The position numbers and the translations under genes are program-made. The notes below the pieces were generated by a model. That model was not told the origin of the DNA. It worked only from the letters and a program-made list of their open reading frames with translations, and ran no database searches. From NCBI RefSeq assembly GCF_029784135.1, contig NC_073744.1, positions 104,577,766 to 104,641,765 of the forward strand: DNA of 64,000 nt. Reading direction: 5' to 3'. The DNA comes from Toxorhynchites rutilus septentrionalis (Eukaryota > Arthropoda > Insecta > Diptera > Culicidae). Positions 13,519-59,785 of the stretch are shown piece by piece. Positions within the stretch are counted from its first letter, which is position 1; every line of letters starts with the position of its first letter.

Positions 13519-14359
13519 TTTTGACGTAGGACTACATCTAACCGGAAGATATAGGGGGTGAAATGGAAATTTAGGCACTGAACAAGTAGGAAAAAATGCA
13601 AGATTTGGAACGCTTATAACTCGAGCATTTCTCAATAGATCGCAAAGGTTTTTGCATCAATTGATAGGAAATATATCTACGCATCTATCATAACGAATAA
13701 GATTTCATTTTTCTTGAGATAAATAATTGAATAATTGTGAAATATCGAGCATTGTCCAAATGCACAATCTGCCCATTTTTGATTGGTACATTTTGTGCTC
13801 CTCAAATCGTACCGACCAAAACGGGCAACCAGAGCAGCAGCGAAATAGAATGAAGCACGATTGGGAAGGAAAAAGAAAAAAAAAGAACGAAACATTGGTC
13901 GCAGTCTCATACATGCGTAATGCTCGAGCTAGCCAGTCAGCTTAAAAATCCATGCTCCACTGCCGTAACGATCATTCTCATCCAAACCGTACACCACATC
14001 GGTTCGCATCACAACACATCAACAAACCAACCCAAGCAGCCATGTCTGGACATGGTAAAGGAGGAAAAGTGAAGGGAAAGGCAAAATCCCGCTCGAACCG
14101 TGTTGATGTGGAGTTCCCCGCAAAGATAGCTAGGCCGAGCGCGTTAGTACCAGTGCACCAGTCCACCTAGCCGGCGTTATATAGTTTCGGCCGCCGAAGT
14201 GATCGAGTTGGTTGGTAAAGCTGCTCGCGACGATAAGAAAACCCGCTTTCAGAACAGAACACATTTGGTTCGGTGGATATCAAGACAACAACAGGCAGTA
14301 GCAGCGAGTGGCGAGTGGCAAACGCAATCGCAAAACGGCAGCAGGTAGAAGAAGAAAAA
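13519..14359 (+). mobile_element. Histone-carrying Helentron-like element, 5' part, plus orientation
   Basis: It begins with the family 5' terminus TTTTGACGTAGGACTACATC and continues through cggaagatatagggggtgaaatgg. It matches the reverse complement of 33230-34070 almost base for base. Inside are a promoter-like region, a leader and an H2A pseudogene. It stops abruptly at gtagaagaag, where the next composite begins with the 3' terminus of the same family (gacgggtgggtaatg), so it is truncated. The rolling-circle label rests on architecture only. Confidence 0.7.
14042..14246 (+). pseudogene. H2A: Histone H2A pseudogene (captured cargo, type ii)
   Basis: Translation from ATG 14042 gives SGHGKGGKVKGKAKSRSNR, the H2A N-terminal tail (family SGRGKGGKVKGKAKSRSNR). 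It then continues VDVEFP, matching AGLQFP. A deletion removes the GRIHRLLRKGNYAERVGAG region. Nucleotides at about 14135-14170 then read as ERVSTSAPVHLAGVI, matching the ERVGAGAPVYLAAVIEY segment, before a stop. After a frameshift, SAAEVIELVGKAARDDKKTR matches the AAEVLELAGNAARDNKKTR segment to 14246. The C-terminal third is absent. H2A is a core nucleosome protein, but this copy cannot make one. A leader of about 90 bp precedes the ATG. Confidence 0.88.
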
Positions 14360-14536
14360 GACGGGTGGGTAATGTCGGTGACATAACCGGAGTGACGTAG
14401 GACTATACAAAGGGGACAGCTTTTACTAAATATATATTTTAAATATATTGTTTTATTTTCTTCTCCTACGTGAATTCCTACCTATCTACCTGAAAAATGG
14501 ATTAGTTTACTGTTTACTCTTTATGAACATGTTGGG

Positions 14537-14552
14537 GGTTCTGAAAAGAACC
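14537..14552 (-). promoter_or_regulatory. Histone 3' stem-loop motif
   Basis: On the minus strand it reads GGTTCTTTTCAGAACC, a 6-bp stem and 4-nt loop preceded by ACCAAA. This matches the 3' processing stem-loop of replication-dependent histone mRNAs, which is bound by SLBP. The adjacent upstream frame (14560-14810 minus) is too degraded to name; H4 is possible but unproven. Confidence 0.75.
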
Positions 14553-15118
14553 TTTGGTGTTGTGTTTTTGCGTTTTTTTTACAAACTTGATTCTTGATTT
14601 TTTTCTGAAGGCTTTGTACTTATTAAATGTTCAACGTCGGGCATCTTTCGGCGTATACACATATCGTACAATCAAAATGATGGCTGTGATAGGGAATGCA
14701 CAGGTGGTCATCAGCTCGTTCACTATCATATATTTCACTATTGAGCACATTACCGTACCTTAAGCTGTGGTTTCGGAGACGAATGAATTGTAAGATTTGT
14801 AGTCTCCGCAAACAAAGTAAATAAAAATGAAAAAGAACTGAGGTTGAACTGAGACGAACTCTACGATCTGTCCAGAAATAAACGAGCTATAAGCGTTCTG
14901 AAAAACCAACAGTAAATACAGGGACGGATGACCTTCGGATTAAAGTCCTTTAAAATAAGAACAGAGCAGCAGGAAATACATAGCTCATCGTGTTGCTCCT
15001 AAGTTACTTCTCTATGCAATGTAGATGTAACGTCAGTCAATTTTCAACATCAGTTATCAACTAAAGAAAGCAGTTCTTGCTACCGAGAAAATTCGTTAAT
15101 GCCATCCTGCATACAATA

Positions 15119-15183
15119 GGAGTTTGGCTCCTTTAAACTTATGTAACTGAGCCTGTAAAAATAAACGATTTAATAAAAAAAAA
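15119..15183 (+). mobile_element. 65-bp LINE tail insertion with 15-bp target duplication
   Basis: ATCCTGCATACAATA occurs at 15104-15118 and again at 15184-15198. The DNA between ends in aataaa plus an A-run and reads as a non-LTR 3' end (ggctcctttaaacttatgta...). The mirror copy lies at 19907-19971. This is an extremely 5'-truncated target-primed insertion. Confidence 0.75.
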
Positions 15184-15405
15184 ATCCTGCATACAATATG
15201 TTGTAATTTGAAGCCACTTTTAATTCGGAAACCATACATGGGTTTGTGAAAACTGAATGATCAATTTAAAAAACCCCAACCACCAATAAGTTCAAGAACA
15301 AGCATAAACAAAAAGAACAGTTTATATTATATGTCATATTATGTCACTTTAGAATGCTTTGGTATTGTGAAAAACTTCTAATAACTCTTCTTTGAATGGT
15401 TTAAT

Positions 15406-15421
15406 GGCTCTGAAAAGCGCC
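15406..15421 (-). promoter_or_regulatory. Histone-like 3' stem-loop, slightly degenerate
   Basis: Minus strand GGCGCTTTTCAGAGCC, lying downstream of the type-i H2A core at 15561-15676. The stem has one mismatched pair relative to a perfect histone hairpin. Confidence 0.7.
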
Positions 15422-57370: not shown

Positions 57371-57660
57371 TGAATGGCATCCTAACGGAAAGAGTTCTGC
57401 GCGTGTATGTGTCGATCCTTCGCCGTCCACCTCCTCCAGCACGTTAGGCAACGATGTTGTCTTGTCGATGTCCTCACGAAAAATGAATGTGTCTCACCAC
57501 CAGAATATCGCTTAAGTATGCTTTTTGTGTGTGATTGAATCGAGAGAAGGTGTGGTTTACGATGGCAATTTGGAAGGCAAACTAGAGGGGAATGAACTCT
57601 CTGAGCTCGGAACTTTCGGCGACTGAGCAATAATCGATTGCGGGCGCATACAATATTGGA
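57345..57660 (-). repeat. Interlude copy 2 between satellite blocks
   Basis: Nearly identical to 55045-55370, giving a higher-order unit of about 2.3 kb (satellite block plus interlude). Confidence 0.75.
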
Positions 57661-57734
57661 TACGGAAATATCCTACTGATGGGGAAGAATAATCCTCTGA
57701 AGCTATCCTGTTAATTGCGATTGATTGAAAAACC

Positions 57735-58525
57735 ACAAAACCAAATGTATTTGGTCACAGTGTTACATGGATAGAAAACATTCAATTAAACTCTTTCACA
57801 TGAATATATTTTGAAAATTCCCAAAGGAACTGGCAGATTATTTTCAGTAACGATTAGATATTTCCACATTTTCCTCGATACTGGAAGCCCACCAGTGGTT
57901 AATGCTAACTCGATAACCACCTGTTAATAGCACTTGATTGAAACATATTTGGTCACAGTGTTACATGGATAGAAAACATTCAATTAAACTCTTTCACATG
58001 AATATATTTTTAAAATTCCCAAAGGAACTGGCAGATTATTTTCAGTAACGATTAGATATTTCCACATTTTCCTCGATACTGGAAGCCCACCAGTGGTTAA
58101 TGCCAACTCGATAACCACCTGTTAATAGCACTTGATTGAAACATATTTGGTCACAGTGTAACATGGATAGAAAACATTCAATTAAACTCTTTCACATGAA
58201 TATATTTTGAAAATTCCCAGAGGAACTGGCAGATTATTTTCAGTAACGATTAGATATTTCCACATTTTCCTCGATACTGGAAGCCCACCAGTGGTTAATG
58301 CCAACTCGATAACCACCTGTTAATAGCACTTGATTGAAACATATTTGGTCACAGTGTAACATGGATAGAAAACATTCAATTAAACTCTTTCACATGAATA
58401 TATTTTGAAAATTCCCAGAGGAACTGGCAGATTATTTTCAGTAACGATTAGATATTTCCACATTTTCCTCGATACTGGAAGCCCACCAGTGGTTAATGCC
58501 AACTCGATAACCACCTGTTAATAGC
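57735..58525 (-). repeat. 198-bp satellite, block 2 (about 4 monomers)
   Basis: ggtcacagtg at 57753, 57951, 58149 and 58347, again exactly 198 bp apart. Ends at ctgttaatag before ccgcgcgtgtatgtgtg. Confidence 0.95.
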
Positions 58526-58739
58526 CGCGCGTGTATGTGTGTATAGCGATGTCTTCCCAGGGAACCGTTTGTGGCATCACTCTCCTCCTGATAGATTCCC
58601 TTCTGGCCTAGGGTGCACAAACAGGCTCTTGGTGACACCGTTCATCCGCGCTTTCATGATAAATAAAGAGCTTCACCGCAACAGCGACAACATGCTCCAA
58701 TCGCTGTTCAATTAGAACTGAGTGGATTTCCGAGCGCCG

Positions 58740-58752
58740 CTCGCTTATATAC
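58740..58752 (-). promoter_or_regulatory. Histone-type promoter remnant (TATA and initiator)
   Basis: Minus strand cggtatataagcgagcggcg, then about 30 nt later ACTCAGTTCT, which resembles an insect initiator. The same arrangement is at about 30255-30270. No intact coding region follows. Confidence 0.45.
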
Positions 58753-59785
58753 CGATTCGTGATTTCAATAGCCTGTTTTGAAAGCAATTTTAAGACTATT
58801 GAAACAAGTTTTTGGATCAAAAAGTAACAAGTATATAACGCGTAGACATTTTATCTTTCGAATGAAGTGTTTATCATACCATTTCGTTCAGTTGTTTAGG
58901 AGCTATTAACGCTCAAAATCTCGGTCTCCGGCGTAACGCTTTCGTTTTCGAAACTTTGATTTTACACCCCGGTATAGAAATGAAAGACGTAGTCCTACGT
59001 CAAAACAATGTTTGATCAAAATACGATATTCCTTTTTTCCATTTTTTATACGAATGCTCAGGTAGTACACTTAAAGAACTGTAGCAAGCAAATAATCGAA
59101 AGGTCATGAAACTTCTCAAATAACATAGTGACAGATGAACCTCTCGAAATGAATCTTGTTCATTTTGACGTAGGATTACGTCTTTCGGGAACATATTGGG
59201 GGTACAAATTGAAAAACCAAAATCGATAGCATCGTGAAAAATATCCAATTTCAAACGCCTATTGCTGAATCATTTCATGATGGATTGATGAGATTTTTGC
59301 GTCAATCGATTTCCATAACAATTTTTAATTGAATAAATGAATGTATGTCATGAAAATAACTATCGAACAATTTAAAAATAACCCCTATGCTAACGGAAAT
59401 ACCCAGTTCTGACTGGTTGGAATTGACGACACAAGCGGCGGCTTATGTACTTACAATTATTGCTCAGTTATTTTCTGAAGGGCATTCATGCATCAATCGA
59501 TTTGAGCACTCCATAACAATTCATCACAATTAATAAAATAATACATTATATGAAACTTTCAAATCTATCAAACTATCAAACACTCGAAATATCTCTCAAC
59601 GGAAATGCCTCGTCCTGATTGTTCGACACTGAAGATACAAGCTTGTACTCAAAAATATTTCTCAGTCATTTTTAATAGATTCACGAGAGTTTTGCATCAA
59701 TCTTTTTGGGCACTCCATAACAATTCATTACACTGAAAACGAATAAAATTATATATTTTATGAACCTTGAGTCAAGAGAGATGCA

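Follow-up and report, generated by a model that had tools for sequence, protein, structure and literature searches.

The closest described systems to the locus reported here are Helentrons, rolling-circle transposons that bear an endonuclease, and the replication-dependent histone genes. As described by Thomas et al. (2014, PMC4067079), Helentrons and their non-autonomous derivatives (HINEs), including Helentron-Cq-32A of Culex quinquefasciatus, are marked by a Rep/helicase with a C-terminal endonuclease, palindromic subterminal repeats, a 3′ stem-loop, a T-rich target, tandem repeats in the non-autonomous derivatives and the capture of broken histone gene fragments, which in Culex come from H4 and H15. 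Metazoan histone mRNAs carry a stem-loop instead of a poly(A) tail, require the stem-loop-binding protein SLBP and are coupled to replication through the stem-loop (PMC2781718). Here we analyse a 64-kb stretch (64,000 nt, the window) of contig 1 of the mosquito Toxorhynchites rutilus septentrionalis (104.58–104.64 Mb; assembly of 902.6 Mb), together with related elements elsewhere in the genome. By their termini and gene content these elements are Helentrons, and behind the Rep gene of three autonomous families lies a signal with the sequence of a histone-type 3′ end, whose presence and between-family conservation are shown below. Histone pre-mRNA processing involves a downstream element and U7 small nuclear RNA (snRNA), and histone mRNA is maternally loaded.

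Several features expected of a Helentron are found in these elements. The Rep/helicase with a fused C-terminal endonuclease lies within same-ended elements of two families, D and B. The palindromic subterminal inverted repeats of 12–15 bp are represented by a 13-mer at both ends, with the palindromic extension GACGTAGGACTACGTC at the 5′ end. The stem-loop near the 3′ terminus corresponds to the terminal hairpins of the two main end types, X and Y, both of which fold. A Helentron would further be expected to insert in a T-rich target without duplicating it, and T runs are present at most element ends seen. Kinship to the described mite Helentrons is seen in Galendromus occidentalis LOC100900662, with 50% identity over 98% of the query, and named relatives in other mosquitoes show 57–70% identity (both among the best 120 of 246 matches); Rep relatives occur in Aedes albopictus, Topomyia, Sabethes, Malaya, Armigeres and Culex. 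We take this mite to be the Metaseiulus of the 2014 Helentron paper. The window copies contain no Rep/helicase/endonuclease gene among their open reading frames (by eye), and on sequence grounds they belong to the non-autonomous Helentrons (HINEs), with at least two subfamilies represented: X, with H2A and sometimes H2B, and Y, with H3. This cargo of H2A, H2B and H3 is unlike the H4 and H15 fragments reported in PMC4067079. A canonical Helitron (5′ TC, 3′ CTRR, A/T insertion) was considered and rejected: the ends read TTTTGACGTAG... and ...CCCGTCTTTT or ...CTTCCTGTTTTT, and the endonuclease was not found in the canonical frames. The genome does contain such a family, A, canonical by its domains (L049, L029, L050). 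It shares the Helitron_like_N and PIF1 domains with the Helentrons but is another family, with the endonuclease domain absent from the scanned frames and no histone stem-loop in the three pieces scanned. Two Rep copies of this canonical Helitron on contigs 1 and 3 (L029 and L030) are identical over 3,354 bp; since they lie on different chromosomes, this second rolling-circle family was probably active recently.

The autonomous partners were identified by a search with the Pfam Helitron Rep domain, in which 150 of 1,313 candidates were scored and at least 132 matched. Flanks were included for the loci of families A, B and D, and family C was taken downstream only. Locus D (contig 2, 6.59 Mb) has an X-type 5′ end, four tandem H2A units, a Rep/helicase/endonuclease frame of 1,674 codons and an X-type 3′ end. 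In the autonomous X Helentron, the four tandem units, of about 1.3 kb, lie between the 5′ end and Rep (L055:1275–5482), and every unit carries two weak stem-loops besides an H2A type 1 pseudogene. At locus B (contig 2, 320.56 Mb) the ends are of Y type, and the element contains two head-to-head H3 pieces and a frame of 1,564 codons. Between two head-to-head H3 pseudogenes (L056:5222–5449), Rfam MIR8562 scores 80 bits (cut-off 211), which is probably an inverted-repeat match only. The D and B proteins both contain DUF6570, Helitron_like_N, PIF1 and Exo_endo_phos domains (Pfam) and are 67% identical over 1,549 residues, and family C (L036, L077, L078) shows 54–71% protein identity to D and B over different parts. 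Rep copies of A and B on different chromosomes, and those of D at two contig 2 places, are 99–100% identical; thus, the activity of these Helentrons and Helitrons looks recent. The window elements were most likely mobilised by autonomous Helentrons of the same genome with the same ends.

In families D, B and C, an SLBP-type stem-loop lies in the 3′ untranslated region (UTR) of Rep on the same strand, about 475, 291 and 223 nt past the Rep stop, respectively. The motif AAGAG follows 15 nt downstream of the stem-loop in all three families and in the host H3 gene, and this distance is 17 nt in H4 and 19 nt in two H1 genes. Scored with the Rfam model RF00032 (cut-off 34 bits), the stem-loops of D and C reach 40.5 and 38.1 bits, and those of the host genes 41.3 (H3), 35.3 (H4), and 26.0 and 24.1 bits (two H1). 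The best local alignment of the 3′ UTRs falls on the stem-loop in all three pairs of D, B and C, and the number of dinucleotide shuffles per 1,000 that reach the observed alignment is 1 for D/B, 0 for D/C and 38 for B/C. No stem-loop arose in 20,000 shuffled UTRs of each family. For C, the UTR was started at the frameshift of L077 in the shuffle comparison and near the end of Rep similarity in the count of AAGAG and AATAAA. Neither AATAAA nor ATTAAA was found in the 3′ UTR of B or C. The Rep genes share with replication-dependent histone genes the stem-loop, the A-rich 5′ flank and the AAGAG at 15 nt, as in host H3. The signal here follows a transposase gene instead of a histone gene, and the search for histone coding pieces ahead of the stem-loop was negative in D, B and, within the fetched stretch, C. 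Between the Rep stop and the stem-loop in the locus B 3′ UTR, a pair resembling a splice donor and acceptor (AGGTAAG ... TTTCTTTTCAG; L052, about 2200–2310) is seen by eye, a possible 3′ intron.

The association of the stem-loop with the Rep 3′ end recurs in other copies. A Helentron 3′ end is present in 8 of 13 Rep 3′-end loci, and all eight have the stem-loop: it is intact in L052, L079, L085, L077, L078, L054 and L086 (the last, a twin of D, judged by position), and one pair is broken in L081, a decayed B copy. The other five loci (L080, L082, L083, L087 and L088) missed the expected place; in none of them does a Rep 3′ end coincide with a Helentron 3′ end.

We put at roughly two in three the probability of the following reading, which explains both the histone pieces and the Rep 3′ signal. 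The pieces would be old, decayed captures of host histone units, made by Helentrons through rolling-circle transposition, and the signal would have been taken from a histone gene. We infer that it acts on the Rep mRNA, where it would now form the 3′ end of the transposase message via the SLBP and U7 machinery, replacing polyadenylation or working beside it. The element would then make a replication-type enzyme in S phase, and its mRNA is perhaps loaded into eggs, as is histone mRNA. X derivatives would carry the stem-loop as a passenger, and the other sampled Y ends are without it. The transposase mRNA is likely to be histone-like and coupled to S phase. The initial annotation had guessed that retained regulatory parts may matter more than the captured protein, and a histone-type 3′ signal in a transposase gene fits this idea. 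Capture of histone pieces by Helentrons is known, and it is the signal on the Rep gene that we did not find in print: the consulted sections of PMC4067079 contain no mention of it, and no report of a histone-type mRNA end on a transposon was seen among the papers listed from the open-access literature, which was covered by abstract openings apart from those sections. A literature search on histone pseudogenes and transposable elements returned nothing, the retrieved papers on mosquito transduplication do not concern this subject, judged by title and abstract opening, and a scan of viral contigs for outside relatives gave four pattern matches and no confirmed relative.

Several observations weigh against this reading. 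The stem-loop of B scores 22.9 bits, below the RF00032 cut-off, and the B/C alignment of the UTRs is weak when taken alone. The 3′ UTR of D has two AATAAA signals, the family C copies that were read have broken Rep frames, and U7 snRNA was not found with RF00066, which was equally silent in the control genomes. The stem-loop is also not always kept in X copies: at 13 X 3′ ends that were not picked by stem-loop score, it is intact in eight, has a broken pair in two and is missing from three. The remaining two adverse points speak at the same time for the strongest alternative, namely that histone genes were captured repeatedly, perhaps via insertion in the tandem histone array, and that the stem-loop is the undecayed tail of a captured gene, useless to the element. 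First, in the X derivative L018 the stem-loop follows a broken H2A frame at a distance of about 57 nt and could be no more than a leftover of the captured H2A gene. Second, exact counts among X copies are 6,171 for the stem-loop 16-mer, 6,316 for a flanking 16-mer and 6,837 for the 3′-end 29-mer; since the stem-loop 16-mer is no commoner than the flank, no purifying selection is seen among these copies. A passive relic would also agree with the histone capture already known in Culex (PMC4067079), and with a stretch resembling a C-type Helentron 3′ end that lies some 260 bp from an H1 stem-loop in the histone array of the host (L084:6783), truncated where the fetched piece stops. This stretch suggests that Helentrons of these families land in the host histone array. 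We consider a mere relic the less likely reading, though one with an appreciable probability. As described above, no histone coding piece was detected before the stem-loop in D, B and the fetched stretch of C; the UTRs agree best at the stem-loop and the AAGAG 15 nt beyond it, in families whose proteins have diverged by roughly a third or more; and the displayed stem-loops of H2A pseudogenes have lost a pair.

A second alternative is that rolling-circle transposition uses the hairpin at the DNA level, as a terminator or recognition structure like the terminal 3′ hairpin, its histone likeness being secondary. Helentrons do have a 3′ hairpin, and in C, D and B the stem-loop shares its strand with the 3′ subterminal repeat, at a distance of 78–188 nt. 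However, X and Y types possess a separate terminal hairpin, and the loop, the flanks and the downstream AAGAG fit histone processing and would be superfluous for a DNA hairpin. The deciding evidence comes from the other sampled Y 3′ ends (L052, L079 and L081 left aside, and not all seen as whole elements), 18 of 18 of which are without a histone-type hairpin within 330 nt. Because the family has spread nonetheless, the stem-loop is apparently not a cis DNA requirement of transposition, which leaves a role in the mRNA of the autonomous gene or no role at all; we therefore reject this explanation as highly improbable. The weakest alternative, that the termini belong to an immobile native histone repeat, is supported only by the fact that histone pieces and termini occur together, and is refuted by the 43,174 exact copies of the terminal motif, by the differing flanks of the loci seen, which bear out the mobility proposed in the initial annotation, and by the host histone stretch L084, which lacks such a terminus except for the C-like one cut at its edge.

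The genome-wide distribution of the stem-loop was examined with a strict pattern (stem-loop, 15 nt, AAGA), which allows Y–R pairs in the middle of the stem so that a C–A mismatch also passes. It has 3,645 + 3,677 = 7,322 matches, and the reversed control has none. Nearly all of these matches are taken to be passenger copies and not Rep genes. Among the first 100, 62 are the exact X-type stem-loop and 38 are not, and the two printed of those 38 have a C-type flank. On contig 1, 68 of the first 100 exact X-type 3′ ends possess the X stem-loop in exact form, at a single spacing in 51 cases. A genome scan with RF00032 gave 199,592 candidates in the first look, and 75 sites were scored; 19 of the 20 best adjoin an X-type 3′ end, with L063 as the exception, and 11 of the 75 have the same score as the one verified H3 stem-loop of the host and a similarly array-like location, host H4 and H1 being uncounted. 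The loci L057–L076 were selected by stem-loop score and are used only in the 19 of 20 figure and, marked as such, among the 17 strict sites that follow. Across the 363,907 bases fetched, the strict signal, here with AAGAG, turns up 19 times: two are in host H3 and H4, and 17 lie within 400 nt of a Helentron 3′ end. Of these 17, five belong to loci selected by stem-loop score and another five to loci retrieved as Rep 3′ ends.

The extent of histone cargo was assessed in 20 loci (L009–L028), a hand-picked, non-random sample drawn from the first 100 places of the motif, all below 2.8 Mb on contig 1, for closely spaced + and − motifs. Their types were assigned by eye, and L016 and L027, which also hold a cut X-like 5′ end, were counted as Y. 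Histone pieces are present in 4 of 4 X loci (H2A), 1 of 13 Y loci (H3) and 0 of 3 loci of other types, so that 15 of the 20 have the shared termini and no recognisable piece. The claim that a whole superfamily carries histone pieces thus holds for subfamilies only. In the native histone genes of flies, H2A and H2B are arranged head to head. The X locus L022 keeps H2A and H2B in this arrangement, in line with the proposal that whole histone units were captured by the ancestors of these elements. All nine histone copies of the window share the orientation of their element piece, as had been noted, but this rule is not universal: H3 lies in both orientations in locus B and L017, and H2B is reversed in L022. 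The fetched host histone stretch L084 contains H3, H4 and two H1-like genes, and the product of its H3 gene is an exact match to the Drosophila H3 protein. Captured H3 is 71–73% identical to the host H3 gene in DNA over some 340 bp, so the H3 capture is probably old.

In the window, TGACGTAGGACTA occurs five times exactly and seven times with up to one mismatch, and TAGTCCTACGTCA four times exactly, which confirms the shared termini. A genome-wide search finds 21,658 + 21,516 exact copies of the terminal 13-mer, against 6 + 10 for a backward-read control. At the sampled loci, element 5′ ends are mostly a T run followed by GACGTAGGACTACGTC, with fewer T in some, and 3′ ends consist of TAGTCCTACGTCA, a terminal hairpin and, in most, a T run. 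The hairpin is GGTTATGTC...GACATTACC in the X type and GGTTATA...TATAACC in the Y type, and others exist besides. An X composite with inverted and tandem parts occupies 13519–20736. It begins with the 5′ part of an X-type (H2A) derivative with the 5′ palindromic subterminal repeat (13519–14359, +; 94% to the L019 element; 5′ end TTTTGACGTAGGACTAC), followed by an X-type element with its 3′ end at the left and a degenerate 5′ motif at the right (14360–17459, −), a second, tandem copy of the X element's 5′ unit (17460–19087, −; period 1,627–1,628 bp, direct repeats D11 and D14) and the 3′ part of an X element with subterminal repeat, terminal hairpin and a T run at its end (19088–20736, +). Further along lie a Y-type (H3) derivative with its 3′ end at the left (27668–30526, −), an X-type element with its 5′ end at the right (31574–34070, −), in which the terminal histone-type stem-loop was looked for and not found, and a Y-type element with 198-bp tandem arrays (54480–59005, −), in which tblastn detected no histone coding piece. 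The two arrays (about 9.6 and 3.9 copies, 98–99% matches; 54743–58525) occupy most of this last element, and tandem repeats are a familiar trait of HINEs (PMC4067079).

Searching the window by tblastn, with histone protein queries, recovers the histone pieces that the initial annotation had listed, namely seven of H2A (two types) and two of H3, all of them fragments or frame-broken as it had stated. H2A type 1 pseudogenes lie at 14042–14246 (+; three frame pieces and a stop, E 1.4e-14), 16733–16937 (−), 18360–18564 (−) and 33344–33548 (−), and type 2 pseudogenes at 15564–15670 (−), 19420–19526 (+) and 32175–32281 (−). One H3 pseudogene covers codons 23–136 and is frame-broken (29058–29370, −; E 2e-35; 71% nucleotide identity to host H3 over 336 positions), and the other is a 3′ end with codons 112–136 (29953–30026, −). 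By eye, TATA-like stretches can be made out, TATAAAA before H2A type 2 and TATATAA in the H3 elements. The SLBP-type hairpins described as well kept are indeed present, but the best-kept ones do not stand beside the pseudogenes. With RF00032, two window hairpins exceed the cut-off and eight are weaker (19.8–25.2 bits). Beside H2A pseudogene pieces, a stem pair is broken in 3 of 3 displayed hairpins, and one further hairpin folds with one pair broken. The two best are a separate terminal stem-loop, the end of which lies 131 nt before the 3′ terminal motif; they score 35.0 bits each, at 14513–14557 (−) and 20533–20577 (+), and both have AAGAG 15 nt downstream. Overall, the picture of mobile elements with captured histone units stands, whereas the family is the known Helentron/HINE kind, for which histone capture was reported in 2014 (PMC4067079).

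Other features of the window lie outside these elements. Lone Helentron-like ends of other or decayed types, with no partner noted in the window, are seen at 59166 (+), 62814 (−), 46849 (+) and 52857 (+). Long + strand frames at 41100–46200 resemble a BEL/Pao-type long terminal repeat retroelement and adjoin TA repeats, and frames at 26203–27035 and 38781–39776 resemble pieces of a mariner-type transposase (both by eye).

Taken to its full extent, the reading favoured here would make the Helentron transposase a replication-dependent, histone-like gene, with an mRNA that is cut by the histone machinery, stable only in S phase and loaded into eggs with histone mRNA, with transposition timed to host replication and with thousands of stem-loops on the elements that compete against true histone mRNAs for SLBP and U7. 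We offer this wider proposal tentatively, as something slightly short of an even chance. If the transposase message does end in the histone manner, this end would be a direct link of transposition to S phase, and the histone stem-loop would sit on a non-histone gene. If the copies are transcribed, the 6,171 exact X-type 16-mers could sequester the histone mRNA processing machinery like a sponge.

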